From: Golubevia sp. BC0850
Taxonomy: Eukaryota; Basidiomycota; Exobasidiomycetes; Golubeviales; Golubeviaceae
DNA length: 64,000 nt
Reading direction: 5' to 3'
NCBI GenBank assembly: GCA_012976225.1
Contig: JAAVVG010000037.1
Span: 35,018 to 99,017 of the forward strand
Shown in pieces: positions 2,971-62,411 of this stretch. The notes beneath the pieces are model-generated. The model had not been told where the DNA came from, made no database searches, and saw only the letters and a program-made list of their open reading frames with translations. Each line of letters starts with the position of its first letter. Position 1 is the first letter of the stretch. The position numbers and the translations under genes are program-made.

Positions 2971-3812
2971 ATGCCAGTCAAAGGATCTTGTCTATGTGGA
3001 AAGACCACTGTCGAAGTCAAGGGTGGCCCGTGAGTGCCGTATGAGTTTCGGGTTCTATTCATCGCTCTCGTTCGTCGTTCTCCCACTAATCCCTTCTCTT
3101 CCCACCATGACTGACTTTTCTTCCTCAATCCAGCTACGATGAGCAGATCGCCTGTCACTGCACCGATTGCGCCCAGGTGAGTTTGTGTTCCCGCATTGCT
3201 TCGACAGCGAATGAGTGCCAACGTCTCTAACTGATTGTCACTCTTATTCTCGCTCCCTTCGAAACTGTTGTTAACAGACCTCTGGCTCTTGTAAGTCTCC
3301 GTCGCTTTAGTCGTCGAGATCGGGTCGACCAAGAGCTGATCTGCTTCTGCCTTTCCCCTCTCCTTCCATATTCAGGCAACTCTACCAACATCCTTCCAAA
3401 GCAATCCGATGTCAACATGAGTGGAGCTATTGGCTCTTTCAAGATCAAGGCACCATCTGGTAACACCGTCGAAAGACTGTAAGTCTCGGCGTTCTTGTTT
3501 CATCGACCCAGTCGACCTCCAACTCACACCCCTCTTTCTCTCACTCTCTTCATCTCCCCTCCCTCTCCCCCGCTTTTTTTCTGCCTTCTCTCATTCTCTT
3601 TCTCTCTCTCTCCGATGCCCAGATTCTGCAAGGAATGCGGTTCAGCTATGGGACATAAGTCTGTCTTCTTCGGAGATGCCATGGCTCTCCAAACTGGAAC
3701 CATGTACCAACACTTCAAGAATGTCCCCATCAAAACCGAACTCTTTGTCAAAGATCGTTGGTCAGGTGTTGCCCCTATCCAAGGAGCTGCTCAAGTCGAG
3801 GCTATGCCATAA
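2971..3812 (+). CDS. GFA-family (glutathione-dependent formaldehyde-activating-like) zinc protein
   Basis: Five exons (2971-3029, 3134-3176, 3278-3290, 3376-3478, 3623-3812) join to 408 nt, encoding 135 residues. The protein shows the GFA/CENP-V cysteine pattern: CLCG near residue 7-10, CHCTDC around 27-32, and FCKECG with AMGHKS in the last exon. These cysteines bind two zinc ions in the family. Members either condense formaldehyde with glutathione or act on other thiol adducts; the specific substrate cannot be read here. One exon is only 13 nt. Donors are GTGAGT/GTAAGT and acceptors YAG. The gene converges on the RTA1-like gene at 4469-6086. A second copy lies inverted at 58524-62411 and is broken by insertions, so this is the intact copy. 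Confidence 0.88.
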
Positions 3813-4468
3813 GGAGATCTAGGTCTAGGAATTGAGAATGGGAAAAGGACAACAACCACTTCAAGAAAGTCTTTGGATTCTGTTCACAGAGTCTGATTCT
3901 TCTCTCTTTTAGCTTCTCGTTTTGTTTCCGACTTGCTCTCCTACAAATTGCTCTTTCTTCACAACAATGCTCTGCTTCTCTACTACGAACCAAATGAAAG
4001 GAAAATACGTTCTACAATTATTACATCTTGCCTGGACTGAAGTTTGAAAGAGTCTTTCGAGCTCATTTCACTGCAGCAAAGTGGCGACGAGATTCACTGG
4101 TCAGTGTTGATATGACAACGACGCATCATCAAGGCAGGGAAGAAAAGTTTCAAGCCAAAATGGTGAAGGAAGATCTGAGTTTATAAATAAGAAGAAAAAA
4201 AGGGGTTGAAGAACGACGTTGACCTGGTTCGATCGCCAGAATGAATCAATAAGGGATTTAAGGAGTGCAGTATAGCTTCTCACGATTGGATCAATGGGGT
4301 CTCTGGAGCTATGCTTTGCTAGCATAGAAACCAATGTTAACACCGAGATTAAGAGTTGAAGAAGACTTGGTGTAGCCGTAGGAACTCGGATCAATCGATC
4401 CACTTCTACTGTTTTTTCCTTTGAGCAAATTCTTGATCTTTTGCTGACTACTCAATAAGGACCTCTAA
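3813..4468. other. convergent 3' regions of GFA and RTA1-like genes
   Basis: About 650 bp between two convergent stop codons. No third gene is recognised. The sequence has a diverged counterpart at 58001-58523. A 100-codon minus-strand frame (4101-4403) is partly conserved in the other arm, but so is the surrounding DNA, so conservation does not argue for coding. Confidence 0.5.
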
Positions 4469-6086
4469 TTAGACGGTCTTGTTCTCAACATCTTTATCTT
4501 CGGCTTGAACTTGGACACGTCCTCTTGCTCTTTTACCAGGGATGTCGTAGAATGGCACATAAGGTCTAGTAGCTGCATCGAACTTCTTGGAAATTGGGTA
4601 GAGAGAAGATGGATATAGTGGAATGTAGATGATGACCGATAGGATGAGTGGTAAGGTGTCGAGGCAAATGGCCAGCACTGTGAAAGAAGGGATGGCAAGA
4701 GCGGAGTGATCGAGATTCGAGGGAGTCTTTCATCAGTGACAAATTTCGAGACTTCAAAATTGGATGACCGAAATTTCATACTCGCCATCATTGGTAGTCA
4801 TGCTGAGGCTGTTGTCCATGGAGAGAATGATCTTGGAAAAGCCTCTGAGCTGCAAAGGCAAGGACAGGTGAGTAGAAGAGGTATTAGCTTCAAGTGTGAT
4901 GTAAGAGTAGGACAAATGATGACACTTACCATCAAGAAAGCGCTAGAAGTACCAAGCACTCTGAGGATGAGTTGGGTTGAATCTTCCTCAGAAGGTCCCT
5001 CGTTGACCAAGGTCGACCTACTATCACTTCTTTGAAGGTAGTCTGACTTTCTGAATTCACTGAAAGCTTTGATTGCCATAGCTTGACATCCACCACTAGC
5101 TTTAACAAAGTTAAGGACGAAGAAGCTGAAAGCTGCTGCTTGTAAAACAGTGCCAGTAGTTGCTAGCTTCGAGCCGACTTCCGGAATGATACTAATCTTG
5201 ACTAGCAGTTCACCTTTCAAAACACATCCGACAGTTTCTAAGAAGGTTCCAATGGTAGTTAAGCTAATCAAAGAGACTAAAGTAGCATTTGAGTCGAAGA
5301 AGATGAAATGAGTTTCAATCCCATTGCTTTGATACTTGCGATCTAGCTTCTTGACCAGACGATGGAAGTAGATGTAATTGAATAAAAAGTAGAAAGTTGG
5401 TGGGAACTTGAAGAAGATGGTCATGAAAATGTAAGGAATTGTGCCTTTGGCGAACCCCATAATTTGAACCATTCTTAAAGCGAAGCCTGGATGAAGGAAG
5501 ATGAAGCGAATTGTTAGACCTCACACATCAAGCGCGCGAGGAATGTCAGGAGTCGACGCTCACCTGCTGCTTGAAAAATCATGGCGAGAGGGAGAAAGAG
5601 AAGGTACCAGTCCTTCCATGAACGAATGTTCTGTGGTTTGAGTCAAAAGCGAGACATTAAGGGCGAGAAATTAGTAAGATGGAAGATGGGGTAGCCTCGA
5701 TGAGGACGCTGAACTGAAAAGAGAACTCACCCAAGCGAGGCCCATTCCGACATTCGAGATGACAAAAGCAAGTAGAGCGGATGATGTACTAGCAGCTTTG
5801 AAGTCTAGAAGACACCAAGAAATCGAACCGCATCGAAGGTTAGCGAGCGGCATTGCCACTTCCCTTATCGTCACTTCCCCGTCTTCAACCTCCTCACCAT
5901 CTTTACCTGACCGCCTTTCTGCCACTCACAGCTCATGATATCAGCAATCATTTCAGGACTGAGACCCATCTGGGCCATTCCAGCCATCTGCTCAGGGGTT
6001 AGCTCCATCGCCGCCATGGCAAATTGAGGTAAAAGAAGAAGAGAGAGAAAAGAGACGAGTCCGGCCCGTTTGTGGAAGGAGAACAT
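4469..6086 (-). CDS. RTA1-like polytopic membrane protein, left copy
   Basis: By exact mirror of the right copy, six exons encode 375 residues. The N-terminus (MFSFHKRAGLVSFLSLLLL, then AMA) looks like a signal peptide. About six to seven hydrophobic segments follow, including ALLAFVISNVGMG, WYLLFLPLAMIF, PYIFMTIFFKFPPTFYFLF, TTGTVLQAAAFSFFVLNF and LPLILSVIIYIPLY. The late pattern LRGFSKIIL, then a segment, then a C-terminal basic/acidic tail resembles RTA1-like lipid-translocating exporters of fungi. I infer that family from topology and weak motif similarity, not a firm signature. The last intron (4785 down to 4678) appears to use a GC donor (G|GCGAGT). The copy at 56383-58000 seems identical in protein, so both may be expressed. 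Substrate is unknown. Confidence 0.8.
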
Positions 6087-6640
6087 TGATGTGTTAAAGG
6101 CAGTTCTGATGCTAGTTGAGAAAAGAGAGTTTGCAAAACGGAGAGTTGGGTTTTTTACCAGAAAAAACTTGATGGGGGAGGAGAAAAGGGCTGAGATGAG
6201 ACGAGAATCAGAAACTCTCGACTTCTATGAATCCACTCTTTTGAGAACGTGGTTCGAACTTTCGATGTTTAGATTTTTAGACTACTCACCCTCTCCGATT
6301 AGAGTACCAATCCAGATAGCCAAAAAACTCCGTTGGGAAAAATGTACTGAAGGAGTTGTGCATTTTCCAAAGGAGCTTCAGACGCTGAGATCTTACGCCA
6401 CATAGTGAGACGGTTTGTGGCTCGATCAAATCTATTCTTATCTTCAGCCATCGATTTCGATCATTGAGCGGGTCAGATAGTTGATATCGATAGCAGATGG
6501 AGGGCAAGATCGAAGGTGACGTATGTGACGTGGTTCAAAAGACTGAGAGAAAAATCTTGATGAGACTGAGAATTTAAATTGAATGCGACGAAAATAGAAG
6601 TACAAGTGAATGAGGGAAACAGAAAGAGAAAGAGAGAGAA

Positions 6641-6822
6641 GAAGGAGAAGAAGAATCGGGTTGACAAGGGAACAATGGTTGAAAGGCAGAAACAGAACAG
6701 GCATACACGAGTGGGACCTTCGAGAAGACAAAGAAGTTTGATGAAGTCTGGAAGATAGAGAAAGCCAAGTGGATCAATGTGCTTTGATTGAAAGGCAAAA
6801 GGAGATCTCAATCTTACCAGCT
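6641..6822. other. short spacer between duplicated block and PAM2-motif gene
   Basis: Purine-rich on the plus strand. It marks where homology with the right arm fades out, at about 6640. No gene is seen. Confidence 0.4.
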
Positions 6823-9800: not shown

Positions 9801-10012
9801 TCAATGACGTCTAATCTTAGTGGATGATGGTTACCATTGTAAGAAGAAGAAGAAGAGGTTGACTTTGGCTGAGAATGAGTGGAAACTTCAGGTTGAAGAT
9901 CAGTTGTTGCTGATTGAGTTGGTCCAGTTCTCTGAATGAATGAAATTCTTTGATTGGTTAATGGATTGAACTGAGAAGAAAGAATAGATGACGATGCTGA
10001 CGATGATGCCAT
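6823..10012 (-). CDS. large low-complexity protein with a PAM2-like motif and a charged coiled coil
   Basis: Two exons (10012-9094 and 8867-6823) join in phase 1 to give 987 residues. The donor is G|GTGAGT at 9093 and the acceptor is CGCAG before 8867. The N-terminal part is Ser/Thr-rich, then has an acidic Asp/Glu stretch and a more ordered segment (VNHAIPLFPFGLTILVNNQ). Exon 2 carries a Glu/Lys-rich coiled coil (roughly 430-560), a His/Gln/Asn-rich tract, and the string SLDPNKPEFVPSFSK. That string fits the PAM2 consensus (L-N/D-P-x-A/x-x-E-F-x-P) that binds the MLLE domain of poly(A)-binding protein. The C-terminus is basic and Pro/Ser-rich. The architecture suggests a translation or mRNP factor, an inference from the motif. 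The gene is divergent from the KH-domain gene across 122 bp. No named orthologue is recognised. Confidence 0.72.
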
Positions 10013-10134
10013 CCTAATCCTAATCTAAATGCCAGAAGACTGAAGAGGGTAGGAGTAGGAGTGCGATGAAGGAAGAAAGCTGCGAGTCGAATCTTGAATC
10101 GCAACTTCTCATTCTCATCCAGCCAACGTCAACA
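10013..10134. promoter_or_regulatory. 122-bp divergent promoter between PAM2-motif and KH-domain genes
   Basis: The two start codons point away from each other with only 122 bp between them, so the genes must share a promoter region. No TATA-like box stands out. Confidence 0.45.
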
Positions 10135-12135: not shown

Positions 12136-12479
12136 GATATCACCGTAAGATTATTTGTTCTCTTTCTTTGTATTGTATCGTTATCCAAATTCATTTTTGA
12201 TTCTTGAGAAGTTAGGTGAATCTCTGTCGTTTTTCCTTCCGTCTAGCTTTTAAGGAATGACTTTGGAGATGCTAGGAGATCGTCTCTGGTTCTGAAGTCG
12301 AATGTCATCGAAGCAACAGATTCTTATAGAACATCCATTTCCTTTTGCAATCGGAGGTCAGGGAGACCTGCTCTCAAAATGGTCGATACGCAGGTGGGCT
12401 CATCCCTCGTCCTCTGTGCGAGGACTAAGTACTCGTCCTGTTTGAAAGCTGACTGATCCCCCTATCCTCCCTCCCCGTT
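12136..12479. other. 3' region of KH-domain gene
   Basis: No gene recognised. A short ATG frame at about 12379 (MVDTQ) runs into a donor-like GTGGGC but no continuation could be supported. Confidence 0.4.
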
Positions 12480-13750: not shown

Positions 13751-14196
13751 TTGAAAAAAGTACAATCTTTCTTTGTGAATCTGTAACGGGTTTTTATTTC
13801 TGGAGACAATAAGAGAATTCAAGAAACGAAAGATGAAAAGAGTGACCGACTAGAACGGTAGCGTGTCAATGCCATTTCCGTTGTCCTTTCCTTCTGAAAC
13901 CTTCTCTGCGAGCTCTAAACCACTTCAAAGATCAGGGGAAGATAGGAAATCAAAGTGATGAAGCCGGAGAAGTCCGGAGAAGCGAGTCACCGAGTAGAAC
14001 TGTTTCACTGAAGTTCAGGATGTGAAGGAGACGAGGTCAAAAGACAAAGAGATCTCTTCCTTTGAGATGCACGTATGAGATGGAATTTGCGGTATGAGTT
14101 TGACGTATTTTGTTACAAATGCGAGGCAAGGAAAGAAAAGAAATGGAAACTTGAAAGCGACGCGTAGGCAACAGAAGCAGCTCGAGCTTTGCCTTT
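13751..14196. other. intergenic region, no gene recognised
   Basis: Lies between the degraded F-box-like locus and the 3' end of the WDR5-like gene. Nothing in it has recognisable coding character. Confidence 0.4.
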
Positions 14197-16501: not shown

Positions 16502-16569
16502 TCAGAGAAAGGAGGATGAGGAGTCAAAGAGAGTTGCAGGTTGAGACGTTGAGGAGTGACTTGCCATCA

Positions 16570-17947
16570 TCTGCTTCTAAACTTCTTCCTTCCCGAACAT
16601 TCATCATCCAAAGAGAAGCGTCTTTACTTCAAATTCAAGGTAAGCTCCTATTTCTTTCACTCTAGATATCTGAATTCTGACTTTCTCATCGTCCTTCTAT
16701 CTCAATTCTCCATCCAGCATCAAGATGACTTCTCATTCGATCAACGACCGTCTTCCTTACGACCTTCTCTTCACCATCTTCAAATGCCTCGATTCGACCC
16801 AAGTCTTCAACATCAGAGGAACGTGCAAGACTTGAAAGGAGATAATAGATGAGAAGAGAACCTTTTGACACACTCTGGCAGTCGAAAGAGAGTTGAGTGA
16901 GGAGTCCATCCAACCGCCGCTCCTGGATCTCTACGACGAGAAAAGTGGCTCTACTCTCAAGGAGGTCTCATCGAACTGGGAATTAGCTGAGTTTGAAGCC
17001 ATTGATCTTGAATTCATCATCAAAACTCTAGACAAATCTAAAGCAACTCCTCTACTTTTCCCAGTACCATCTGGTCGAATACTTCAGGATCGGTGGGGAT
17101 TTACTTCCAAACGAGCTATTGGGGGGAGAGTCAATGATGGAACAGTTTGGATTCGAGAATAGAACCCCTGGTAAATGGTTCCGCAATTCTCGCATTAGAC
17201 TTCTCAGAGAGACCCCAACACAGAGAAGGGATGAACTAGAGGGTTCCCCTCTGCGAGTTTTCTGGTCTCGGAACATCTACATGAACATGAAGGTCGGCTC
17301 CAAGATCAACTCAAAGGTGTTTAACAGTCTATCTTCTCTTTATATACATGAACATCAAGATCCTCATGAATGGAGGGAGCTGCTGGAACAGCCCTCGAAA
17401 ACATTGAAGCATTTGGGAATCATCTAAAAAAGAGATAGAGACACTAACGGAATCGCACCTCTTCAATTCCCACTTCTGCAAGCTTTCGAGTTCACAAACA
17501 CCGGTTCCGGGTTCCCTGACTGGATGTTGGTACCTTCAAACATTAAGCTCCGAATCTTCTCTCTCACACCCAATCTACCGCAGGCTGATGAGTTGATGGT
17601 GTCTTCACTACGCAGTCACCCAACCGAGCTCTCCGCTGGACTCCCAAGGCTTCAAATTCTCAAGAATTACTGTCCCAGCCATGTCGGAAACATCGATTTT
17701 TCTAGCCTCTACGATCAAATCCGTACCGAGGAGCCAAGGAGGGTACTGGATCTTCTTCAGACAAGAAATCAAAACGTCGAAGCTGAAATGGACGTTGGTG
17801 GAACGAAGATGGAACGTATCAAGAAAATAGTCATCGCCTTTGACAAGTACACTGCTCAACAACTAGATGAGCTTAGAGGGCTAGTGGAGAAAGTGGTAGA
17901 GATGACTGAAGAGAACGATTTCTTGGAAGTCAAGATTTGAAATTGGG
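16570..17947. repeat. left arm of the inner inverted duplication (F-box copy)
   Basis: This block matches about 52136-53515 in inverted orientation. In the 3' part the pairing is x to 70083 minus x without indels (17524-17940 against 52143-52559), and it slips by about 10 bp at the 5' end. Matching fades at the leader near 16570 and just past the stop near 17947. Confidence 0.9.
16725..17940 (+). pseudogene. F-box protein gene, broken copy 1
   Basis: Starts MTSHSINDRLPYDLLFTIFK and continues CLDSTQVFNIRG, an F-box-like helix pair (LPxDLLxxIFxxL) as in fungal F-box substrate receptors of SCF ubiquitin ligases. Stop codons then interrupt the frame: TGA within the string GCAAGACTTGAAAGG (TGG in the other copy) and TGA in CCTTTTGACAC (again TGG). 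The frame goes on as GSTLKEVSSNWELAEFEAID and FIIKTLDKSKATPLLF, stops again at about 17160, and a last intact piece (17524-17940) ends the protein. The second copy has Trp at the first two of these stops, so the damage arose after duplication. Introns cannot explain the stops. Confidence 0.78.
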
Positions 17948-41740: not shown

Positions 41741-41774
<34 letters not shown>

Positions 41775-46342: not shown

Positions 46343-49300
46343 ATGTCAACTTCCAACTTAACTGTCTCACTCCATCAAGCTTGCTCTTCGGGAAACATTG
46401 GTCTTGTGGAATTTGCCTTATCAAACGGACAATCCCCTAACACTTCAATTAATGGACTATCACCTATTCACATAGCTTCTTCATATGGGAATTTAGGTGT
46501 CGTCAGGGTTCTAGTGAGGAGAGGGGTAGATGTGAACAGTAGAAGGACGGCAGGTGGTGGTGGGAGTAGTAGCATGTCTGCAACCTTATCAGGTATGTCA
46601 ATGTCTGGAGCTGGTCAGATTAGAGCAAGGGGTACTACAAATGATGTCAGCCCTTCAAATCAAGTCGCAAGTGCAAGTATGAACGTATCTTCTGGAATCA
46701 GTAAGCTCGCAGAAGGTTCAACTGCTTTGCACTTCGCAGCTGCAGGTAATCACATTTCAATAGCCAGATTTCTATTAGAAAGCGGAGCTGATAAGAAGTC
46801 CAAAGATGCTAGTGGGTTAAGTGCTGAAAGTTTAGCATCTGAAATGGGAAATGATGAAGTAATTGAACTGCTAAGGAATTGGAATGGTCATGAACGTGAA
46901 CTGAGCAATGGGTTCACAACTTTAAGTCCATCAATTGAAGAATCTAATAACTATTCAAACAATTTCAACAGCAGTTTTAGTAGACCAAGAGGAAACACAG
47001 AAAACTCAACTTCTTCGACCAATTCCACTTCGATTTCAATTTCCTCTCCTTCACCAACTCCAACTTCCTCTTCAAATCCAACAACGATTTCCAATTCTTC
47101 TTTGAAACCTCAAAGATCTTTTGAACAGATTCATTCTGCTGCTATTGGAGTGAAAGCAAGTTTATTGTCTGCTGGTACCAATTTAAGAAGGAAAGAAGGA
47201 AGTGGAGTTGGGAAAGTTTGTTCAAATCCGAATTTAAGGGGAAATGGATTGAAAGAGAAGGACAAAGATAAAGAACGAGAAAGAGATAGAAATGGAGAAG
47301 GTGGAAGTGGAGGAATCGTTTTACCTCCATATCCAGGATCATTAGCTTCAAATACTGCCTCTTCACCAAGAACTACCTTATTTCCAAGTCATCTTCAATC
47401 TCAACAATCATCTCCTGGAAGAACGCATTCACCATCCACTTCAACCTCAACTTCAAATAACCATCAGACGGACCAAGATTTAGGCTTCTCATCATCTCAA
47501 ACTCCATCCTCTTCAAACGAACCTCGAGTCTTTGAAAAAGAGAGAGAAGCGAGAAGAAGACCATCTTTGCCTTCAATCTTAGAGAAAGCAAGTCATCCAG
47601 CTCAAAGTCTGAGAAATGCTCTCGCAGATAGAATTGGAAGTTCAACTTCAAATTCAACTCCCACTACCGCCTTTTTCGAGTCCCCTACTCAAAACTCTTC
47701 GACGGATTCAAGACATGCTCATTCTTCAAGTGGCGGCTCGACTGCTCATGGTGGATATGGAACTGTGTTCTCAACTAGCAATCAAGAAATGATCGAGGAA
47801 TTAAATTCGGAAGTTCCTTTCAGTTACTTACCTCATGGTCAGAATCAGAACTCTTCAAGTAGCGGTGGACCTCCTCCTGCAAGTCCAGGATCTATTGCCT
47901 TGAGACTGACTGGGAAAAGAAGTTTGGGGAATATGTTGAGGAAGGCTACTTCGAGTGGAGATGGGAATAATGAAGCTTTAAGTCCCAAGAGATCTAATAG
48001 AGCTTTGTCTCCTGTTTCTGGTAGGATCTCTGAAGATGAAGCTTCAGGCAGTGGCTTTTCAAACTCGATCTCCAGGTTCAATTCCAACAGTAACAAAAGT
48101 TTAAACAGAAGTTTCAGTAGTAGTAATTCTGGAGGCTATAGTTTGGACATTGAAAGGTCAAGGATAAGTTCTCCTAAGATTACAAGTCCTTTCTTACCTC
48201 AAGCAGTATCGATTATGGCTGAACAAGGAGTCACAGAGAGTAATGGAAAAGGAAAGGAGAAGACTAAATTCACAGGTTTGTGGGCTAGAGGTGAAGTTCT
48301 GCCTCCCAAAAGCGTTCTCAACTCAAACTCAACTCAGAACTTCAAGGCTAGATCAAGGGGATCCGGATCTGAAAGTAATGGAGTCTCACCAAGTCCAAGC
48401 CCTAGTAGATCGAATTTTGGTGGAAGTGCAAGTGGCGATGGAGATAGTTTGGGGAGTGGAAGTCTCAGAAGTGGGAAGGAAACAAGGAATAGACGCTCTT
48501 CAAACGAAGTGCCTAATAGAAGCAATGATCTTAATTCTAATAGAAGTCTAGGTGGGAAATTGAGTACGGAGTTTTACAGACCCAGGAAAAGTTCTACTCT
48601 TTCAATTTCAAGTAACGCTACTTCTCCAAAGGACACTGTCTCAAATTCGATTCCTGCTTCGAAATCGTCGGATCAAGAGATGGGGAAGAAGAATGAGAAT
48701 GAGATTTCTCCGATCGTCAATAGGAGGAGGACTCAAAGTTCTGCTGCTTCTACTAATTTTAACAGAAGGTTCTTACTAGCTGATAAGGAACCTTTACCTA
48801 ACAGTCCTGTGAGAGGGGAGTTCTTGATTGGCTCAAATGCTGCTGTGAATGCTAGTTCTGACAACAAGACTGAAGACGAACAAGAACTGTTAGACTCAAA
48901 CGTAAGCTCGAGGAGCGGGAACTTAACAGGACGAAATCGAACCAACTCGGATGGTCTAGGGAGAGGTGGAATCATACCTAGTTCTTTGAGAACAATCGCT
49001 TTCAATGAAACTTCAACGATTCTTCCTATCACTTCTCAAATGAATTCAAATCTCGCCTATCCAACTCCATCTAAATCTGAAAGTTTGGTCAGACCAGCTC
49101 CCACTCGATCTCTACCTTCGAATGGTTCTAATTCCGAAATTGAGAACTCTGGTAATTCAACTCCTTCAAGTCCAGGTGGGAATCGAAATCGATCTAATAG
49201 CAGTTTGACCCATCCTTCTCTGCTAAGCTCAGGTTTACCAGAACAAAGACTGTCGCCTAGGTTCAGATCAAATGATAGAGTAGGTTCTGAAGAACAAGAA

Positions 49301-51033
49301 TCTTTGAATGAAAGTTCAGATATTCAAGAGGAGTCCACTACTGGTTGGAATATATCGAAGAGTAATGTTCCATCCAGTGGCAAAAGACCTAGATCTCATT
49401 CAAGAGCTGGTTCCATGGTTTCTAGACCTTCAACTTCTTCTTTAAGGTCTGAAGGTTTCATGAATGTTTATGGAATTTCTCCAAGTAGTAACGGAACTGG
49501 TCCAATTCATCAATCTCATTCAGCCCCTGCAACTCCCGGTTTATCAACTGTTGAACAAGCCCAAAGCATTTTGAAAAGAGCGAATGAAGTTGTTAGTAAT
49601 AATCGAAGTAGATCCGGATCTCAAAGTAATGGATCTGAAAATCCAACTTTAGGCGGAAGTTCAAATATTACAGATCTCTTAGCTGCTTTCGGTGAAACTT
49701 TGGCTTTGGAAAGAAGAGCTAGAAGTACTAGTAGATTAAATTCTCCGAATTTAAGTGGAAGTAATTTGGATGGAAGTAACATTCAGATGAAAGACTTTTT
49801 GAATTCCAATGGTTCGACAACTGCGCTAGCTTCAGTCAGTGAGGATCAAGATGTCTCACTACATCCTAATTATAGATTCAGTCATGCTACTTCTCCTAGG
49901 CTTTCGAGTAATAGATTGGAAGTCGAAGATGGGAGTCATGGAAGAGAAGAGGGGTCTGGTGGAGGGGGTGAAAGGTTTGGTAGTAACAATAGTAGGAGAA
50001 GAACCAGTGTTGGCAGTAGAACTGGGAAACAACCTCCTAGTCCATTGTTAAGGGAGCTGTTCCTTGGTGAGTCACAGGCAGCAGCCAACATGTCGAATAG
50101 TCATTCAAGCTCAAATGTTTGACGAGACTTGTGTTTGTTTTTCTTCTCTCCCCCTCAACAGATGCCAACGCTACTTCCAATTCGCCTCACTCCCATCCTT
50201 CAGAGCTAATTCGATCTTCCTCGGTGGCTGCCATGATTTCGGCTCACTCACCTCAACCTGGTCAACCTTGGCCACCACCTGCCTCTCCAGCGAGCACCAG
50301 ATCTGCCAACATCACTAGGTCTTCCGCAACTGGAGTCATTCCTCCTCCAAACCACAGATCCAATACTCTTCCAGTCATACCAAGAGTCGAACGAGTTAGC
50401 GAAGACTTCCTGAGAGTTGGCAGGGGGACTCAAGGTGGATCTACAGCAAATCCTGCCACTCCAATCATGAACTCTTCAAGTCCTTACTCTGACGGACCTA
50501 GTTCATTCGCTTTTGGAAAGAATGGCTGGACAACTCCTGATGATGGAAGAAATGGGAATGATCCTCAAAATCCTTCACTTGGTAGATCAACAATTGTTAA
50601 CTCTCAACATAAGCATTCTCCTTCTATGCCAACTGAATTAAACTCTATGAGAAGGAACTTGGATCAACCCTCGACGGTAATAGGTAGAGAAAGAAGACCT
50701 TCTTATGTTACTGGAATTCCAAGACAGTTGGATTTTGGTACTGGATTGGGAGGAATCGATCTGGCTCCTTCAAGTTCAAATGCTAACACCATCACGGATT
50801 CAAAATTCATCAATAGTGTCGTTGGATTGGGTTTCAAGGATAATGAATCCAATTTGGATTTGAAGGATTATGCTGAATTGAATAATCAAGCTGAACATCC
50901 TCCTTCTAATAAATCAAATGTTGAAATCAGTAGTGGTAGTAATGGTCCTTTCAAAAACAAGAGGACTATGGTCAGAAACTTCTTCAGTGGGATTAAAGAA
51001 TCTAAAGCTAGGAAGGGAAGTTTTGAAAATTAA
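46343..51033 (+). CDS. ankyrin-repeat protein with a very long Ser/Asn-rich tail
   Basis: Two exons (46343-50066 and 50162-51033) encode 1,531 residues. Ankyrin repeats occupy roughly residues 1-185: SLHQACSSGNIGLVEFAL, GLSPIHIASSYGNLGVVRVL, STALHFAAAGNHISIARFLL and GLSAESLASEMGNDEVIELL, with a Gly/Ser-rich insert between the second and third. The other 1,340 residues are Ser/Asn/Pro/Arg-rich with many basic-Ser-Pro sites, as in proteins regulated by kinases. Near the end, KNKRTMVRNFFSGIKESKAR is more ordered. A named orthologue is not recognised; a signalling or cell-polarity scaffold is a guess. Bases 47419-47529 recur exactly at 63890-64000. Confidence 0.85.
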
Positions 51034-52142
51034 AAGACTTTCACTGCAGCTTCAACCTCAACAAAAATGAGATCAAATTCGACGACCTTTTCTATTTCTC
51101 AGTTTATCATACTCCTTTTTTTCTCTTTTTTAAAGTCAAATAAAGTTTTGCTTCTTTTCTTTTTCCGGGTTCCATTCACCTTTCATGTGTTTCAATCTTC
51201 TCAAATCATCATCTCTCAATTTCTCTTCTTGCATGCACGCAAACAAAAGGTCCTCTTTATTTTCTCCCTCTCCCTCTCTCCATCTCTCTCTTGCATCCAA
51301 CCCAAACCTCTCTGTTTTTCTCGGCCAATCATTCTTCTTTCACTGATCCCAAAAAACCAACATTTTCTTTCATCATTTCTCTTTCTCTCTTCACACCAAA
51401 TACTTGCATGATTCGAACAATTTTTCATCTTTACCTTTCTCTTCACCTTTTCTCAATTCAATTTTATCATTCTCACCATGGCTCTTCAAGATCTCATGAG
51501 AAGTTTGAGTGTTGATGATCACTGAGGTTCACTAGAGTTTGAACTTGTGCGACAAGAGAGTGAGAATGAGAAGCGAAAAGGAAGGAAAATATTGTGGCGC
51601 AACACTGGAAACTTTTTGATAGGAAGAGAAAGGCGCATGTGAGGCGAGATAGAAGGGAACTTGGGTTGCGTCATGGGGAGGAGAGACAAATAAGCGAGAT
51701 GGAAGGAGGGCGCTCAATCCGGAAAAGTGGAGATTGAAAATTTCTCAATTTAATCCTATAGGGAAAGGTTCTTTTACAACCAAAGGAGAGGGAGGGAAAG
51801 AAAGCTTGAACGAACTGGATGACGGACAAAGAATCTGAATGTAGAAGAGACTCTTTTGTTTCATCTTCGAGCAAGGAAAGAGATCACTGATGGGAAAAGT
51901 TAGAGACAGAAATTAAATGAAATTGGTCAGAGTTGGCAGTGAGGCGAGAATCTGACAGAAAAACCAGAGAAAGTTTCAGATGGAAGTTGACTCACAGTTT
52001 CCAGCCTCAGTCACCTGCCATCGTCGCCAGCTCTAAGGATTGAAACAGGATCTGGGAATGGCAAGGATAAGGATTGGTGAGCGAAGACCAAGAGCAATCA
52101 CCAGGTGAAGAAATCAAACTCACCAAACTCAAAAGCTTTCTT
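51034..52142. other. 1.1-kb intergenic region, strongly pyrimidine-rich at first
   Basis: From about 51070 to 51480 the plus strand is almost all T and C with A; the remainder is purine-rich. No gene is recognised. It probably holds the 3' region of the ankyrin gene. Confidence 0.45.
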
Positions 52143-53515
52143 TCAAATCTCAACTTGCCAGAAACTATTCTCTTCAGTCAACTCTACCATTTCCTCAACC
52201 ATCCCTCTGAGCTCATCCAGCTGTTGAGAACTGTATCGTTCAGGATGTATGACCAGTTTCTTGATGCGTTCCATCTTCATTCCACCAACATCCATCTCAG
52301 CTTCGACGTTTTGATTTCTTGTCTGAAGAAGATCCAGTACCCTCCTTGGCTCCTCGGTGCGGATTCGATCGTAGAGGCCAGAAAAATCGATGTTTCCGAC
52401 ATGGCTGGGACAGTAAATTTTGAGAATTTGAAGCCTTGGGAGTCCAGCGGAGAGCTCGGTTGGGTGGCTGCGTAGTAAAGACACCATCAACTCATCAGCC
52501 TGCGGTAGATTGGGTGTGAGAGAGAAGATTCGGAGCTTAATGTTTGAAGGTACCACCATCCAGTCAGGGAACCCGGAACCGGTGTTTGTGAACTCGAAAG
52601 CTTGCAGAAGTGGGAATTGAAGAGGTGCGATTCCGTTAGTGTCTCTGTCTCTTTTTTAGATGATTCCCAAATGCTTCAATGTTTTCGAGGGCTGTTCCAG
52701 CAGCTCCCTCCATTCATGAGGATCTTGATGTTCATGTATATAAAGAGAATATAGACTGTTAAACACCTTTGAGTTGATCTTGGAACCGACCTTCATGTTC
52801 ATGTAGATGTTCCGAGACCAGAAAACTCGGAGAGGGGAACCCTCTAGTTCATCCCTTCTCTCTGTTGGGGTCTCTCTGAGAAGTCTAATGCGAGAATTGC
52901 GGAACCATTTACCAGGGGTTCTATTCTCGAATCCAAAGTTCTATCATTGACTCTTTCCATAGTAGCCCGTTTGGATGTAAATCCCCTGATTTCCCACCAA
53001 CGAATGCCCCTTCGTCCAGAGAGTACATAGAAAAGTGGAGGAGAGTTGCTTTAAATTTGTCTAGAGTCTTGATGACTGAATCAAGATTAATGGATTCAAG
53101 CTGAGTTACTGCCAAATTGAATGAGACCTCCTAGAGAGTAGAGCCACTTTTCTCGTCGTAGAGATAGATCCAAGATCGGTTCGATGGACTTCACACTCAA
53201 TTCTCTTTCGACTACCAGAGTTTGCCAAAAGGTTCTCTTCTCATCTATTATCTTCTGCCAGTCCTTGTACGTTCCTCTGATGTTGAAGACTTGAGTCGAA
53301 TCGAAGCATTTGAAGATGGTGAAGAGAAGGTCGTGAGGGAAACGGCCATTGATCGAACGAGAAGTCATCTTGAAGAGAGCTGGATGAAGAGGAGGTGAGT
53401 AAGTGGGGGTGAACGTCAATTTCTATATCTTTAGAGAGAGGCAAAATACTGACTCACCTTCCAGCTGAATGATGATGAACTTTTGGATGAAAGTCCGGGA
53501 AGGAAGAAGGGAATG
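52136..53515. repeat. right arm of the inner inverted duplication (F-box copy)
   Basis: Inverted counterpart of 16570-17947. Coding sense is minus here. Differences are scattered single bases plus small indels, so this pair is older than the identical tract in the outer pair. Confidence 0.9.
52143..53368 (-). pseudogene. F-box protein gene, broken copy 2
   Basis: Reads MTSRSINGRFPHDLLFTIFK, then CFDSTQVFNIRGTYKDWQKI and IDEKRTFWQTLVVEREL, an F-box with Trp codons where copy 1 has stops. A frameshift follows in the piece encoding ILDLS (copy 1 keeps LLDLYDEKSGSTL). A second frame picks up AVTQLESINLDSVIKTLDKF and stops near 52945. A third (52559-52143) encodes the intact C-terminal segment, with VVPSNIKLRIFSLTPNLPQA and DELMVSLLRSHPTELSAGLP. 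Copy 2 is thus dead by different lesions from copy 1. Expression of fragments cannot be excluded. Confidence 0.78.
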
Positions 53516-53754
53516 AATCAATTCAAATTTCAACACCCCACGGCACGCATCACCAATTTAAAATTTCTGAAAAGTTAAACAGTGTTTCAGCGTGTCAGAG
53601 AGCAAGGAAATATATAGCAGAGAAATGATTGATTGCCCTTTGTTCTCATTGCTTTATGCTTTATTGTTCTGTCTAACTTACTACATATCCCGCCTTATAA
53701 ACTAGCTGCAGCTGCTCCTCTCAACTAACCTCAGATCCCTTCTTCTCATCAAAG

Positions 53755-55460
53755 ATGAACACTGCCATGTCTTCTAGAATTGGAATAAGCTCTCCCAACA
53801 GAGTCTTAAGTCAAAGTCACATCATCAAGTCACTTCTATCAACTAGAGCCTTTTCATCCACGAGTAGAATCTATCGTCCTCTCAGCAGTCAAGAACTTCC
53901 CAGTACGAAAGGCAATCAGAATCCATCATTCAATCCGCCACCATCTACTTCAACTTCCACCTCCTCTTCCTCCAGCACTTCCTCACCTCGAGATTGGTCA
54001 AATGCAGAACCCCTACACCCAGAACATCTAGTCAATCATAATGGTCGAATCTTAAGCACTCGTATTCCTCCAGATCCTCCAGAGCAGGAGCGTTCCCTTC
54101 CATTCACTCCTCAACCTCCTTCCATCTGGAGAGCTCTCCTCTTCTTCTCCTTCGTTTCAATCTCTTCTTACTCTGTAGCAACTTACTGGGCCATTAAAGA
54201 CTCCGATCGAATCGCTCAAGAGATTTCTCAATCAAGATTCTCCAACTTTGGTAGCTTGTCATCCTTCTTCGGTGGAGGAGGCAGCGGAGATGCTGCTGCC
54301 TCTATCGGAGAGAGGAAATTGAGAGTGGCAAAACAGCAGGAGATAGCAGAGAGATTGGGGTGGAGAATGGAATGGGTGACTGGATGGTGCGATCAATTAG
54401 GGATTGGCACAGGGCCAAAGGAATTCGTGGGAACTGTTTATCTGGCTTTGGCTGAGAGGTGAGTTCGAGGTGATTGTCGGTAAGAGTAGTAGGTATAAAG
54501 AAGTAGAGACTCTCTGAAAGGAGGGAGCCAGACTGGAAGAGAAGAAGGAGAAGTTCCATTCAAGACCTTCGAAATTGAAACTGTCCTATCGACCTTCACT
54601 TCACAGGTATCTTGCACTCCCCCCTTCTCAACAGGCAATCGTACCTATCATAGCTCTCAATACTCTAGTGTTCATAGCTTGGAGAGCTCCAGGAAAAGCA
54701 GCCTATCAATTCCTCTCTTGCCACTTCATCCATTCCCCCGCCTCTGGAAGACATTATCCGATGCTTACTTCAGTCTTTTCTCATCAATCACCCCTTCACT
54801 TCCTCTTCAACAACTACGCCTTTTGGTCTTTTGGGGCCATGGCTTTCGTCTCTCCTCTATTCATCAAATCTTCCTCAAGGTCTTCTGGAAATCACATTCC
54901 AGAAGCTTCAATCGCTCCTCATTTCTTAGCCTTCTTTGCTACCGCTGGAGTATTTGCAAGTCTAGTCTCTCATACTGTGGTGGCCCTGAGATTCAGAAGA
55001 GTTTCCCTGTTGAAAGGTCTGGACTTTGCAAAGAAGACTGTTGGTAGACATTCAGGTTTAGGAGCTAGCGGAGCCATTTACGCCGCAATCGTTGCCACAG
55101 GTTTGGGTTTTCCTGACTCTAGACTGAGGTTAGTATTGTCCTACTTCTCTTTCGTCTTGTCTATCTTCTCTCTGTGTGTCTCGCTAATCGAAACTTCTGC
55201 CATCTATCCATTTCCACAGTATCATCATTCTACCTTTCATTTCCTTCCCAGTTGGAACCGGAATCAGCTGTATGGTGGCTTTGGATCTCATAGGAGCTAT
55301 TAGAGGCTGGAGAATGTTTGATCATTTCGCTCATCTAGGAGGTGCCTTCTTTGGCTTCACTTATTTTAAATTTGGATATCAGTGGTGGGAGGACTGCAAA
55401 AGGTTGGGAAGGAGGATAAAAGATGAGTCTTTGAGATCAAAGAAAGTGGTTGAGGCTTGA
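53755..55460 (+). CDS. PCP1: mitochondrial rhomboid protease (PARL/Pcp1-like)
   Basis: Three exons (53755-54458, 54607-55128, 55220-55460) encode 488 residues. The N-terminus is basic and Ser-rich (a plausible mitochondrial presequence, with STRAFSSTSRIYRP). One membrane helix (IWRALLFFSFVSISSYSVAT) precedes the rhomboid core. The core has IVPIIALNTLVFIAWRAPGK, HYPMLTSVFSHQSPLHFLFN (the first conserved His/Asn region) and HSGLGASGAIYAAI with the catalytic Ser of GASG. MFDHFAHLGGAFFGFTYFKF carries the catalytic His. The mitochondrial inner-membrane enzyme cleaves proteins such as Mgm1/OPA1 and cytochrome c peroxidase in yeast. The order of an extra N-terminal helix followed by six is typical of PARL types. 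Confidence 0.93.
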
Positions 55461-56382
55461 AAGTAAATTCACTGTTGAATTATATATCGACAAGTAATAC
55501 CACCTCTCACAGGATGATGGCTGTCAACACTTGTATGTTTTGCTGCTCCATCCTTGTACCTTTCTATTTAACTCTCTGCACTTTTGCATTTCTGAAGAAG
55601 GTCCACCACTTAGCAGGAATGACTCAAAAAGCAAAGGATGATGACCATGCGAAGTTCAAAATCAATGCTCCTCAGCACCCTTTCCTCTGTGTTTTGGATC
55701 ATTGCCGAGCTCCTGAGCACAGAATAATGTCCATGGAATTGTGACAAAATTAGGGTTTCTAAAAGGACAAACACAGATCTTGAGACCAACTTGAGAAAAA
55801 TAGAGCTGGGAAAGAGGGATCTCTCTCACTCTCCCTCGCTCCCATTCACATGTACTTCCATATTTGTTGCAGTCGAATTAAATCCTCAGTCTTATCAAGA
55901 TCTTTCTCTCAGTATTTTGAACCACGTCACGTACGTCATCTTCAATCTTGCCCTCCATTTGCTCTCGATACTAACTATCTGATCAGACCTCAATGATCGA
56001 TATCGATGGCAGAAGACGAGAATAGATCTGATCGAGCCACAAATCGTGTTACACTGTGGCTCAAAACATTTGAACCAGATCTGAGCATCTGAACCTCCAT
56101 TGGAAAATGAACAACTCCTTCAGTACATTTTTCCCAACAGAGTTTCTTGGCTATCTGGATCAGTACTCTGATCGGAGAGGGTGAGTAGTCTAAAAATCTC
56201 AACATCGAAAGTTCGAACCATGTTCTCAAAAGAGTGGATTCATAAAAGTCGAGAGTTTCTGATTCTCGTCTCATCTCAGCCCTTTCTCCTCCCCCATCAA
56301 GTTTTTTCTGGTAAAAAACCCAACTCTCCGTTTTGCAAACTCTCTTTTCTCAACTAGCATCAGAACTGCCTTTAACACATCA
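55461..56382. other. region between rhomboid and RTA1-like genes
   Basis: No gene recognised. A 95-codon frame at 55457-55744 lacks any domain apart from one hydrophobic run. From about 55820 it belongs to the right arm of the outer duplication. Confidence 0.4.
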
Positions 56383-58000
56383 ATGTTCTCCTTCCACAAA
56401 CGGGCCGGACTCGTCTCTTTTCTCTCTCTTCTTCTTTTACCTCAATTTGCCATGGCGGCGATGGAGCTAACCCCTGAGCAGATGGCTGGAATGGCCCAGA
56501 TGGGTCTCAGTCCTGAAATGATTGCTGATATCATGAGCTGTGAGTGGCAGAAAGGCGGTCAGGTAAAGATGGTGAGGAGGTTGAAGACGGGGAAGTGACG
56601 ATAAGGGAAGTGGCAATGCCGCTCGCTAACCTTCGATGCGGTTCGATTTCTTGGTGTCTTCTAGACTTCAAAGCTGCTAGTACATCATCCGCTCTACTTG
56701 CTTTTGTCATCTCGAATGTCGGAATGGGCCTCGCTTGGGTGAGTTCTCTTTTCAGTTCAGCGTCCTCATCGAGGCTACCCCATCTTCCATCTTACTAATT
56801 TCTCGCCCTTAATGTCTCGCTTTTGACTCAAACCACAGAACATTCGTTCATGGAAGGACTGGTACCTTCTCTTTCTCCCTCTCGCCATGATTTTTCAAGC
56901 AGCAGGTGAGCGTCGACTCCTGACATTCCTCGCGCGCTTGATGTGTGAGGTCTAACAATTCGCTTCATCTTCCTTCATCCAGGCTTCGCTTTAAGAATGG
57001 TTCAAATTATGGGGTTCGCCAAAGGCACAATTCCTTACATTTTCATGACCATCTTCTTCAAGTTCCCACCAACTTTCTACTTTTTATTCAATTACATCTA
57101 CTTCCATCGTCTGGTCAAGAAGCTAGATCGCAAGTATCAAAGCAATGGGATTGAAACTCATTTCATCTTCTTCGACTCAAATGCTACTTTAGTCTCTTTG
57201 ATTAGCTTAACTACCATTGGAACCTTCTTAGAAACTGTCGGATGTGTTTTGAAAGGTGAACTGCTAGTCAAGATTAGTATCATTCCGGAAGTCGGCTCGA
57301 AGCTAGCAACTACTGGCACTGTTTTACAAGCAGCAGCTTTCAGCTTCTTCGTCCTTAACTTTGTTAAAGCTAGTGGTGGATGTCAAGCTATGGCAATCAA
57401 AGCTTTCAGTGAATTCAGAAAGTCAGACTACCTTCAAAGAAGTGATAGTAGGTCGACCTTGGTCAACGAGGGACCTTCTGAGGAAGATTCAACCCAACTC
57501 ATCCTCAGAGTGCTTGGTACTTCTAGCGCTTTCTTGATGGTAAGTGTCATCATTTGTCCTACTCTTACATCACACTTGAAGCTAATACCTCTTCTACTCA
57601 CCTGTCCTTGCCTTTGCAGCTCAGAGGCTTTTCCAAGATCATTCTCTCCATGGACAACAGCCTCAGCATGACTACCAATGATGGCGAGTATGAAATTTCG
57701 GTCATCCAATTTTGAAGTCTCGAAATTTGTCACTGATGAAAGACTCCCTCGAATCTCGATCACTCCGCTCTTGCCATCCCTTCTTTCACAGTGCTGGCCA
57801 TTTGCCTCGACACCTTACCACTCATCCTATCGGTCATCATCTACATTCCACTATATCCATCTTCTCTCTACCCAATTTCCAAGAAGTTCGATGCAGCTAC
57901 TAGACCTTATGTGCCATTCTACGACATCCCTGGTAAAAGAGCAAGAGGACGTGTCCAAGTTCAAGCCGAAGATAAAGATGTTGAGAACAAGACCGTCTAA
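56383..58000 (+). CDS. RTA1-like polytopic membrane protein, right copy
   Basis: Six exons (56383-56539, 56665-56738, 56839-56905, 56983-57539, 57620-57683, 57792-58000) join to 1,128 nt and 375 residues. The protein appears identical to that of the left copy. Membrane segments and the C-terminal charged tail (RVQVQAEDKDVENKTV) are as described there. The last intron needs a GC donor at 57684 to keep frame: GAT G|GCGAGT then TTTCACAG|TG. With a stop otherwise at about 57712, the GC-AG intron restores NDVLAICLDTLPLILSVIIY, the seventh membrane segment. The family call, RTA1-like, is an inference from topology. Confidence 0.82.
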
Positions 58001-58608
58001 TTAGAGGTCTCTGTTGAGTAGTCAGCAAAAGATCAAGAATTTGCTCAAAGGAAAAAACAGTAGAAGTGGATCGGTTGATCCGAGGTTCCTACGGCTACAC
58101 CAAGTCTTCCTCAACTCTTAATCTCGGTGTTAACAATGGTTTCTATGCTAGCAAAGCATAGCTCAAGAGAACCCATTAATCCAATCGTGAGAAGCTATAC
58201 TGCACCCCTTAAATCCCTTATTGATTCATTCTGGCGATCGAACCAGGTCAATGTCGTTCTTCAACCCCTTTTTTTCTTCTTATTTATAAACTCAGATCTT
58301 CCTTCACCATTTCGGCTTGAAACTTTTCTTCCCTGCCTTGATGATGTGTCGTTGTCATATCAACACTGACCAGCGCATTCACTTCTTCTTGCCCGTGTTA
58401 CTCGTCGCCACTTTGCTGCAAAAAAGTGAGCTTGAAAGACTCTTTCAAACTTCAGTCCAGGCAAGTAGTAATAAAAGTGATCGTTTTCCTTTTCCCATTC
58501 CAAATTCCAAGACCTAGATCTCCTTAAGGCATAGCCTCAACTTGAGCAGCTCCTTCGATAGGAGGAACTCCTGACTAACAATTTTTGACAAACAACTCAG
58601 TCTTGATG

Positions 58609-59947
58609 TAGTCTGCTTCCAGCCCTTCCGCGCCCCTCAGCCCAAGACACGGCGTTACGACGATGTCCTTGCGAGCGGAGCAAGGAAGGTCTTGTTTCCA
58701 AAGTTGATGCTTTGGCTGTGGTATCCCCCTCCAAGTGGTTTTTCTCACCCATCGTCCCAACTTCAAGAAAAGATATTTATCAAAGCTTCGCGTCATTCTG
58801 AATAGGGTAAAAGTTTTGTTGTGTGCACGAAATTCATGTCCCGCTTCAACCAGACGATTCGAATCATGAGTAGGATGGAGCTTTTCACTTTTGTCCGAAA
58901 TTCAACTTGGCTTCAATGGTCTCCCCCCCCCTTTGGTGTAACGGGGTTAACTAGTAGAAGATAGGTAGAGTGCTAAGGAGGTAGACTTGAGACTTGACAA
59001 AGGCTGAGGGCAGTTGGGAATCAGCGTTGGGAACTTGGTGGTAAAGGCTAAGGGTGGAGTGGCAAAGACTTGAGGTTGAGACTTGACTTAGGGGACTAAG
59101 GAACTTGAGCAGGTAGAAAGGACGTAGGAATTCAATATCAGATGAGGAACTATCTATGTACAATTGGGGAGTGCTTTATATATGTTTGAGAGTTAAAAAC
59201 AAAGGGATTTAGGAACAAAGGTTGGAACAATGTAGCACAGGAATAGAGGCAAGGGAACAAGGGACAAAGAGACATGGAGACAAAAGAAAGAACAAAGGGG
59301 TCAAAGGTACCAAGGATCTGTGACACTTGGTCAAATTTGGGATTTCCCCAACTTCAGCTGAGAAGCTCCATCCCACAAAATGTCCAATTGCCCTGATAAC
59401 TTCGATTAAATCCAACTTTGATGCCCAAATATCACTGTGGTGGCACTTTAATTGGACCAAATTGAGTAATGTTTGTACAATCTGAGCTTCTTTTTGACAT
59501 TCTTGGCCATTTGAGACCTATTTTCTGCTACTCAGCTACATTTCGCTTCCTGTGAACCACCTCCAAGATGCAAGTGTATTTTTTTGTTGAACTATTCAAA
59601 ACCTTGTACGAAGTGTTGAAAGACTCAAAGCGCCATGGGATCATTCTGTGGAGAGTGGTTTTGGGCCAAAAGTCAAGGATTGTGTAGATTTCAAGCCTTT
59701 TTGTGAAATTGAAAAAATCTGCCAATGTAAGTGGCTTTTTGACCATTAGAAAATCGTTTTTTTCAGGCAAAATAACATATGATAGAAAAGGTTTGGAGGT
59801 ATCACATTTAGATTTTGAGGTGTGAAAAATGCCAGAATTTGGCTGGTGAGAGAAAAAGGTGGTGGGAGACCACCAGCAACTTGTTGCAGGGGAACAAGAC
59901 CCTCCGCAGTCGGCCACCCTAAACGCAGCGGGGACTTGCTCAAGACT
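58609..59947. mobile_element. 1.34-kb insertion with a 10-bp target duplication
   Basis: Flanked by agtcttgatg on both sides (58599-58608 and 59948-59957), while the intact left GFA gene has a single homologous site. Its ends are GC-rich and begin TAGTCTGC / finish CAAGACT, so a short AGTCT terminal inverted repeat is possible. No transposase frame is visible. A 9-11-bp duplication is typical of Mutator-like elements, so it may be a non-autonomous MULE, with a nested LTR-like segment inside. Confidence 0.7.
58937..59325. mobile_element. candidate solo LTR nested in the 1.34-kb insertion
   Basis: Starts TGTAACGGGG and ends ATCTGTGACA, a TG...CA pair with near-inverted tips (TGTAAC / GTGACA). 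The flanking pentamers are TTTGG and CTTGG, a target duplication with one mismatch. A TATATA element near 59176 and short GACTTGA repeats fit an LTR. The element family is unknown. Confidence 0.4.
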
Positions 59948-60124
59948 AGTCTTGATGGGGATATTCTTGAAGTGTTGGTACATGGTTCCAGTTTGGAGAG
60001 CCATAACATCTCTGAAGACAGACTTGTGTCCCATAGCTGAACCACATTCCTTGCAGAATCTAAAGGTCAGAGAGAAAGAGAATGAGAGAAGGCAGAAAAA
60101 AAGCGGCAGGGAGAGAGAGAGGAG

Positions 60125-60182
60125 AGAGGGAGAGATGAAGAGAGGGAGAGATGAAGAGAGGGAGAGATGAAGAGAGGGAGAG
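60125..60182. repeat. 16-bp purine tandem repeat in the broken GFA copy
   Basis: Three full units of agagggagagatgaag and a partial fourth. They lie in the homologue of intron 4; the left copy has only one unit-like stretch. Confidence 0.85.
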
Positions 60183-60240
60183 AAAGAGGGGTGTGAGTTG
60201 GAGGCCAAGTGGGTTCATGGAAAAAGAACACCGAGACTTT

Positions 60241-61966
60241 GTAATGATCGGGGTTTGGCGTCAGCTGAGCCACGAGGCACTTCACCTTCCTTTTGCCAAT
60301 TTTGTCAGTTCTCTTCTGCTCCTCATCCTATCTTGCTTTGCTCTTTGTTCAGGTATGTTACCGCAATTCATTAGCTAGATTCAATGAGAGTTGGTTAACT
60401 AATACACTGCTTTTCTCTTCGTTCAGCGTCTCTCCCAAGTGTCTCTGACTAGGTTCTATCGTCAGACCTTCTCAGCGTTTCAGAAGATAGGATTCAAAAG
60501 ACACCCCAAGACTTGCTATTCCCACAGACTCCTTCTTCCACCATGAATCCGGACGCACCTGGAAAAGCTCCTTGGACCGTGTGGGAACTCACAACCATCA
60601 TCTTCTCCCCACGCCATGGAGGCCTTTTCCCAATTCTCGAGTACCAGCAAGTTCTTCAACTTTCACCCTTCCAACAATCATAGACTCTCTCTGAAGACAA
60701 TCGTGTCTCCAACCTTCTCTGGTTACTTCAACTGAAGCGTTGGCTTGATGCAGTCATTGCTCACGATTCTAGGATCAAGGGAGCTAGGACAAAGGAAAAG
60801 GTCTCAGAGCTCTACTCTAGAACTCTGGGAAGTGGTGGATCGATCACCTTCAGGACGGATGTGGTGGCATCCTTTGAAGAACACAATCAAACAAGAGGAA
60901 GACAAAATATTCAAGGATTCGACTAGACCATTGGTATCTCTTTGAGGAAATGAAGGCTGTCGGAGTCGGGTAGCCAAGAACAGGGGCCAGCCAATGCGGC
61001 TCCACCTCACCAACTACTCTAAGATCCTGAACGCCTTCCAGCTGGACCAAGACAAACCAAGTGCTACTACCTACGCTGCTATGGTCATCATCAAACAGCT
61101 ACCCCCAGCCTGGTACAAAAGCATGGTGATCAAGTTCTTCCTTAAGACTAAGAGAGGAACGAGAATGGTCTTCAGCCCAATGGAGCTTCAAGCCTACTTC
61201 CAGACGGAGCTAGATGCAGGTTGCCTAAACGGAAATGGGGTTAACCCTGGTCAGAAGAGGTCCTTGGACGAAGCCGCTGGTGGAAATGGAGCTGGGTCAG
61301 GAGGCCCAACTGCTGCTGCTGGAGCTGGGAACGGGAACTGGAAATGGAAAGGAAACGGAATGGAAACAGAAACAGAAATGGAAGAAGAAGAGCGGCCGTA
61401 ACGCAACTGCTTCTATGCAGTCTGCTGATGAGCCACCGCCATCACCACCTCAGCAACCAGTGGCCTCCATGCAAGCTCTCCCTCCTACTCCCACCTTCAA
61501 TCACCCACCTCAATTGGCCCATCCAATTCCTCATTACCACCGCCCTCCTACTCCTCAATCTCCGTGCTATCATCAACGTCTGTCAACCCCTCAGACTTTT
61601 CACAGTGCTTGCAATCCTCCTCCCCCACCTCAACAACTCGAAGACTTCCGCACAGATGGGGGAGTGACCTACAAATTCAGATCTGGATAGACTCAGCCGG
61701 CAATGGAGGGGTTTAAGAGCGCTGGCGTCGCATCGTTAAGTCAACCTCTACCACCAACTTCTCCTCTGTCTCCGCCTCCATTCCATCTCACTGGCAGCAA
61801 GCAACATCAAGTTCCCCTTCAACACACCAAGCAGGAAGCTCGCTATCTCACATCCCCGTCACATCAAGGTTGTCCCTATGCTTGTGTCTCCATACAAGGA
61901 TCGATGTCAGCTCAGGAGGTCTTGGTCTTGGTCGATTCTGGAGTTCACTTCTTCCTCGCCTTCTTG
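60241..61966 (+). mobile_element. retrotransposon fragment with Gag-like and protease-like sequence
   Basis: Flanked by a 6-bp repeat GACTTT (60235-60240 and 61967-61972). From 60543 a Gag-like protein can be followed through several stops and frame changes: MNPDAPGKAPWTVWELTTII, LLQLKRWLDAVIAHDSRIKG, KILNAFQLDQDKPSATTYAA and IIKQLPPAWYKSMVIKFFL. A Pro/Gln-rich stretch follows, then VLVLVDSGVHFF, which resembles the aspartic protease motif of copia-type elements. Reverse transcriptase is absent and no LTR was found at either end. It is dead. Confidence 0.65.
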
Positions 61967-62411
61967 GACTTTCAGTCTTTCGGCAATGCTACCAGATGGT
62001 AACTTAATCTTGAAAGAGCCAATAGCTCGACTCATGTTGATATCGGATTGCTTTGGAAGGATGGATGTTGGTAGAGTTGCCTGAGTATGGAGAGGGAAAG
62101 GCAGAGGCGACCCAGTTCTTAGTCCACTAGATCTAGATTCTAGATGACTAAAGTGACTCAGACTTGCAAGAACCAGAGGTCTGTTGATAACAGTTGCAAA
62201 GGTAGTGAAAATCAGAGTGAAATGGATCAGAGACATTGGCACTCGAAGCAATGCAGGAACACAACCTTACCTGGGCGTAATCAGCACAGTGACAGGCAAT
62301 CTATTCATCATGATGAATTGAGGAGAAACGTCAGAACTGTTAGAAAGAGAAGAGATTAGTAGGAGAATAAAAAACCAGAGCAAAAATTGAACCCAAGACT
62401 CATACAGTATT

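Follow-up and report, generated by a model that had tools for sequence, protein, structure and literature searches.

Two overlapping processes, namely an inverted duplication of a GFA/RTA1 gene pair with recent homogenisation and the pairing of two members of a dispersed F-box family, probably gave rise to the nested inverted repeats of the window, i.e., the whole 64,000-nt stretch of DNA analysed here (C30:35018-99017 in a genome of 25,771,031 bases and 64 contigs); we put the probability of this reading at roughly 0.75. Self-BLAST of the window detected both inverted pairs that the original prediction had described: an outer pair, in which 3030-6637 aligns with 62414-55820, and an inner pair, in which 16707-17942 aligns with 53390-52141, the latter nested within the former in mirror order. 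The E-values of the inverted pairs ranged from 4e-37 to 0, therefore these matches are not due to chance, and the gaps between outer and inner arms were unequal as predicted, namely ~10.1 kb on the left (6637-16707) and 2.4 kb on the right (53390-55820). Besides inverted homology, the region displayed mosaic identity, insertions with flanking repeats and copies on other contigs. From these observations we infer gene conversion as the mechanism, an ability of the segment to flip and the following order of events. A GFA/RTA1 gene pair of ~3.6 kb would have given rise to an inverted duplicate ~50 kb away. The two copies would then have diverged, in most segments of their flanks by Jukes-Cantor (JC) distances of ~0.11-0.22, insertions would have entered the right copy and split its GFA-like exon, and the RTA1 part would recently have been made identical again through ectopic gene conversion or a crossover inverting the ~50-kb centre. 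In a separate process, F-box family members would have exchanged short tracts and come to lie in mirror placement by coincidence.

The outer GFA/RTA1 pair is a real inverted duplication, as supported by the aligned segments 3030-3485/62414-61967, 3481-3736/60239-59949, 3728-3861/58608-58475 and 3997-6637/58492-55820. Its left arm (3030..6637, plus strand; self-BLAST and Pfam) carries a GFA-like fragment and an RTA1-like gene, the latter on the minus strand, and its inverted right arm (55820..62414, minus strand; self-BLAST) is split by two insertions. Of the gene labels assigned earlier to these arms, RTA1 held, the 720-nt frame at 4801-5520 of the left arm reaching 24.7 bits in Pfam at a cut-off of 24, and GFA was recovered in part: in both arms (3483-3809 on the left) the C-terminal part of the profile alone was matched, below the cut-off. 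The JC distances, for which gaps were left out, amounted to 0.222 for 3030-3485, 0.113 for 3481-3736, 0.166 for 3728-3861, 0.051 for 4018-4384 and 0.135 for 6190-6637. The flanks beside an exactly identical tract around RTA1 were 81-95% identical, i.e., 5-19% of aligned columns differed, and the part of the left arm directly beside this tract (4120-4459) was 96-97% identical to the right arm. Searches of the genome scored the best candidates, and a missing match is not proof of absence. In these searches, left-arm DNA matched beyond C30 just 69 bp on C26 and 255 bp (78%) on C24, and the outermost end of the right arm had a 96% copy on C24, the DNA matched outside C30 being the outermost part of the outer pair only. 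The RTA1 family itself gave 16 exon-wise matches in the genome, these two copies counted. Except for its outermost part, the outer pair consists of DNA that is single-copy apart from this duplication, and its two inverted copies bound a segment. In Drosophila mojavensis, according to the portion of the study drawn on here, staggered-break inversions leave inverted duplicates, and the inversion was shown against a related species (PMC3355041). As there, inverted duplicates of otherwise single-copy DNA, one of them degraded, lie at both ends; unlike there, where the orientation relative to relatives was shown, that of the window is known from one genome alone. The outer, and perhaps the inner, pair might be the scar of such a staggered-break inversion, which would explain the origin only and would be compatible with later gene conversion. 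The fact that most of the outer-pair DNA was found in these two inverted places only is the signature of the Drosophila type (PMC3355041, as far as that portion goes), but the dispersed family accounts for the inner-pair copies without an inversion, and we regard this origin as rather unlikely.

The evidence for recent homogenisation comes from the exact tract of 1,727 nt around the RTA1-like gene, located at 4460..6186 (plus strand) in the left arm and, by sequence match, at 56283..58009 (minus strand) in the right arm, with 50,096 bp between the two copies. The tract comprises the 720-nt RTA1-like frame and about 1 kb more, and it thereby provides identical inverted repeats of kb scale that bound a segment. 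The longest mismatch-free stretch of the outer pair spanned 1,764 aligned columns; when the mismatches were permuted 20,000 times, no permutation reached this length, and the longest stretch was 411 columns. This mosaic identity is consistent with homogenisation of the repeats, here in one genome, with a putative mechanism and a possible contribution of assembly collapse, which could have boosted the exact identity. Judged by the sequence, the simplest explanation of the exact tract appears to be that old inverted duplicates recently underwent ectopic gene conversion or a crossover with each other. The 1,727-nt identity points to a recent exchange between the arms and gives good support to the original prediction that they could recombine. 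Purifying selection was considered as the cause of the identity and rejected: the tract is more than twice as long as the RTA1 frame scored by Pfam and holds zero differences of any kind, synonymous positions included, therefore selection on the protein would not explain it. It is quite improbable that the tract is an assembly artefact in which near-identical arms were collapsed and reused. Both ends of C30 have stretches (111 and 114 bp) that copy other sequence, which implies that the assembly may err at repeats, and an exact repeat of 1.7 kb exceeds the span of short reads. However, the flanks differ by 5-19% of aligned columns and only one arm has insertions, N is absent from the window, and long contigs (C7 with 718 kb; C11 with positions to 2.16 Mb) suggest, without proof, long-range data. 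On the same flank differences and one-sided insertions, misassembly of a whole arm was rejected.

The right arm is longer than the left (6.6 kb vs. 3.6 kb) because two insertions split it, and the left arm is continuous at both points. The first insertion (58609..59948) lies in the right GFA-like exon and consists of a ~940-bp element, LTR left out, which is bordered on both sides by the 10-nt repeat CATCAAGACT and has relatives on C63 and C64, both without the LTR. Nested in this element is a solo LTR of 389 bp (58937..59325, TGT...ACA), for which the scoring of 40 out of 63 candidates yielded at least 27 near-full-length copies with 94-98% identity; three same-strand pairs of LTR copies lie ~5.5 kb apart (C12, C55, C9), a spacing like that of LTR retrotransposons. 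The second insertion (60240..61966) is bordered by repeated AAAGTC, and its part 60591-61549 recurs on C24 at 94% identity. Loss on the left side was rejected as the source of the length inequality, the extra right DNA being two insertions with short flanking repeats and relatives elsewhere. Directly outside the right arm lies a repeat (62415..63886) that is found on C24 at 87% over its length and, mostly from ~63147 on, also on C55, C46, C33, C9, C38, C2 and C3 (74-78%). On C24 (2053-4702), the copy of 60591-61549 is fused directly to that of 62174-63886, with 61550-62173 absent. The right edge of the window is the end of contig C30 (99,017 bases), and the last 114 bp (63887..64000, plus strand) show one mismatch to 47416-47529 and are perhaps an assembly tip; at the other contig end, outside the window, C30:1-111 has an exact copy in C8:1917-2027 and may likewise be an assembly tip. 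The hexamers TTAGGG/CCCTAA were found neither in the first nor in the last 2 kb of the contig.

By contrast to the outer pair, the inner pair is not made of otherwise single-copy DNA; as far as can be read from homology, it is two members of a dispersed F-box family. Searched against its own genome, the left copy (16707..17942, plus strand) gave 16 matches, self counted: the right copy at 89%, a third copy on C30 at 127-885 (96%) with a short match at 1-100, three copies at 80% (one on C7, two on C8), two on C8 at 67%, and seven shorter matches on C32, C34, C22 and C9. The original prediction had held that many more copies elsewhere would turn the pairs into ordinary dispersed repeats; the inner pair has such copies, whereas none were found for most of the outer pair. 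The left copy is probably a pseudogene, its F-box region being interrupted by two in-frame stops, and the right copy (52141..53390, minus strand) has a frame open across the F-box domain, which scored 21.1 in Pfam at a cut-off of 20.5. A central tract of the left copy (17146..17779, plus strand) is 98% identical to the right copy and has flanks of 79-82%; this match at 98% is limited to ~0.63 kb and may represent a conversion tract. In successive 100-nt intervals, left and right copies were 57-88% identical in the 5' flank, 96-99% over 17180-17779 and 73-79% in the 3' flank, and the right copy and its C7 relative were 91-100% identical in the flanks and 78-98% in the centre. The flanks of the inner pair gave JC distances of 0.207 and 0.244, and its longest mismatch-free run (102) was reached in 10 of 5,000 permutations, a weaker result than that for the outer pair. 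In the trees of both flanks, the right copy grouped with the C7 copy with 100% support; the left copy grouped with C30:127-885 in the 3' flank (94%) and with C8 in the 5' flank with a support of just 76% and 54%. AU tests rejected a grouping of left and right without C7 for both flanks (p 4e-5, 2e-4, 7e-38). For the centre, the best tree united left and right; the test did not reject a grouping of left with C30:127-885 (p 0.172) but did reject the arrangement seen in the flanks (p 0.007). The centre tree thus differs from the flank trees, which implies a separate history of the F-box centre, as expected of conversion, and the family seems to exchange short tracts. The mirror position of the inner pair within the outer pair is probably coincidental; nested mirror repeats need not mean one duplication when a dispersed family can explain the inner pair.

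The right F-box copy sits inside an ankyrin/F-box/rhomboid block (47952..55693, plus strand), pieces of which, 88-96% identical, recur in the same order with some parts absent at C7:253-5499, near the start of C7, where the C7 sister of the right F-box copy is located. The C7 homology ends 127 bp before the right outer arm. Part of this stretch had been counted as unique centre, which does not apply to it. These data bear on the earlier proposal of one ancestral inverted block of ~15 kb (GFA-RTA1-interior-F-box), considered here with the interior later lost or replaced on both sides. The mirror order of both pairs agrees with it, as do the flank distances, which are close (JC 0.051-0.222 for the outer pair; 0.207 and 0.244 for the inner one), so that equal ages are possible; moreover, a 5'-flank tree with the left copy beside right and C7 was not rejected (AU p 0.28; 0.465 on a shorter stretch). 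However, no clear remnant of either interior was found on the opposite side. At the DNA level, the left interior (6640-16570) and the right side (51500-64000) shared eight short matches with E-values up to 1, the best being 34 nt with E 0.002. At the protein level, the comparison of 130 ORFs gave eight weak matches of 17-43 residues (best E 0.002), none of the 24 rhomboid-block ORFs matched in the left interior, and in the positive control all 28 arm ORFs matched with E 2e-10 or better. Furthermore, the homology of the left F-box copy starts at 16583 with C8 and only at 16707 with the right copy, and the ankyrin and rhomboid genes beside the right copy recur on C7, with no copy found on the left side. 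Under the single-block model, both interiors would have to be lost almost completely, and F-box copies at other places would still be required. The dispersed family, the sister relationship of right and C7 and the grouping of the left copy with the third copy on C30 therefore do not support a single 15-kb block, and we regard it as improbable; an inverted duplication is supported for the GFA/RTA1 pair but not for a block with the F-box genes, which belong to a dispersed family and have other sisters.

The arrangement of homogenised inverted repeats proposed for the outer arms is of an already known kind, and its nearest analogue is the flip/flop region of S. cerevisiae chromosome XIV. In the parts of that report drawn on here, 4.2-kb inverted repeats with gene conversion and occasional inversion of 24 kb are described; the repeats are almost identical and genus-wide, both orientations are documented, and assembly error is argued against via independent long-read assemblies (PMC9731477). 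The same parts give the orientation as unchanged over ~53,800 mitoses and 950 meioses (PMC9731477), therefore flipping is rare even in yeast. As described there, homogenised inverted repeats that are kb in size and contain genes lie on either side of a segment with several genes (24 kb in yeast, ~50 kb in the window), gene conversion has been put forward as the cause, and a mobile element splits one repeat (in three strains of yeast). Unlike the yeast repeats described there, just 1.7 kb is identical here within older, diverged arms, in one genome and one assembly. By analogy to yeast, it is plausible that the outer arms could flip the ~50-kb centre. That the RTA1 arms act as an active flip/flop switch, with recurrent conversion, occasional crossover and both orientations of the centre in the population, is a doubtful extension; if true, gene-bearing inversion toggles would extend beyond the cited yeasts, with SPT5, Het-C and RRS1 in the centre of this one. 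In Ogataea (Hansenula) polymorpha, two MAT loci carry identical inverted repeats of 2,049 bp, and the mating type is switched by inversion, as stated in the section of the source used (PMC4238957). In both cases identical inverted repeats of ~2 kb bound a segment (2,049 bp there, 1,727 here), whereas no mating-type Pfam family was detected among the 50 of 129 window ORFs scanned. The window offers a clear single-genome case in which old inverted duplicates have regained identity over one gene and have decayed in their flanks, and the homogenised RTA1 tract would be a fresh inversion substrate.

The gene content was analysed via Pfam profiles with curated cut-offs for the same 50 of 129 ORFs. 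Besides RTA1 and the F-box of the right copy, families above the cut-off were KH_12, WD40, Het-C, SPT5 domains, RRS1, NAP, ankyrin and rhomboid. Genes split into short frames, SPT5, Het-C and RRS1 being among them, suggest a fungal origin. Among the labels given in advance, this confirms KH and a WD40 protein in the left interior, rhomboid in the right interior and SPT5 and Het-C in the centre; WDR5 was the best propeller family for 14372-15106, below its own cut-off, and this set of ORFs gave no confirmation of PAM2, F-box/LRR or NUS1. Scans of the window for tRNAs and against Rfam gave no match. Whole-genome DNA queries from the centre and interior (6600-12000, 12000-16600, 18000-27000, 27000-36000 and 37800-46300) returned, among the best candidates scored, six short matches of at most 95 bp elsewhere, in addition to a local NAP-like cluster. 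In the latter, two NAP-family ORFs lie on the minus strand at 40922-44329, and an inverted stretch (43657-44257) is 67-81% like one of them. Just 3' of the SPT5 domains, a 36-bp tandem repeat (33370-33608) encodes a repeated peptide motif, as read by eye.
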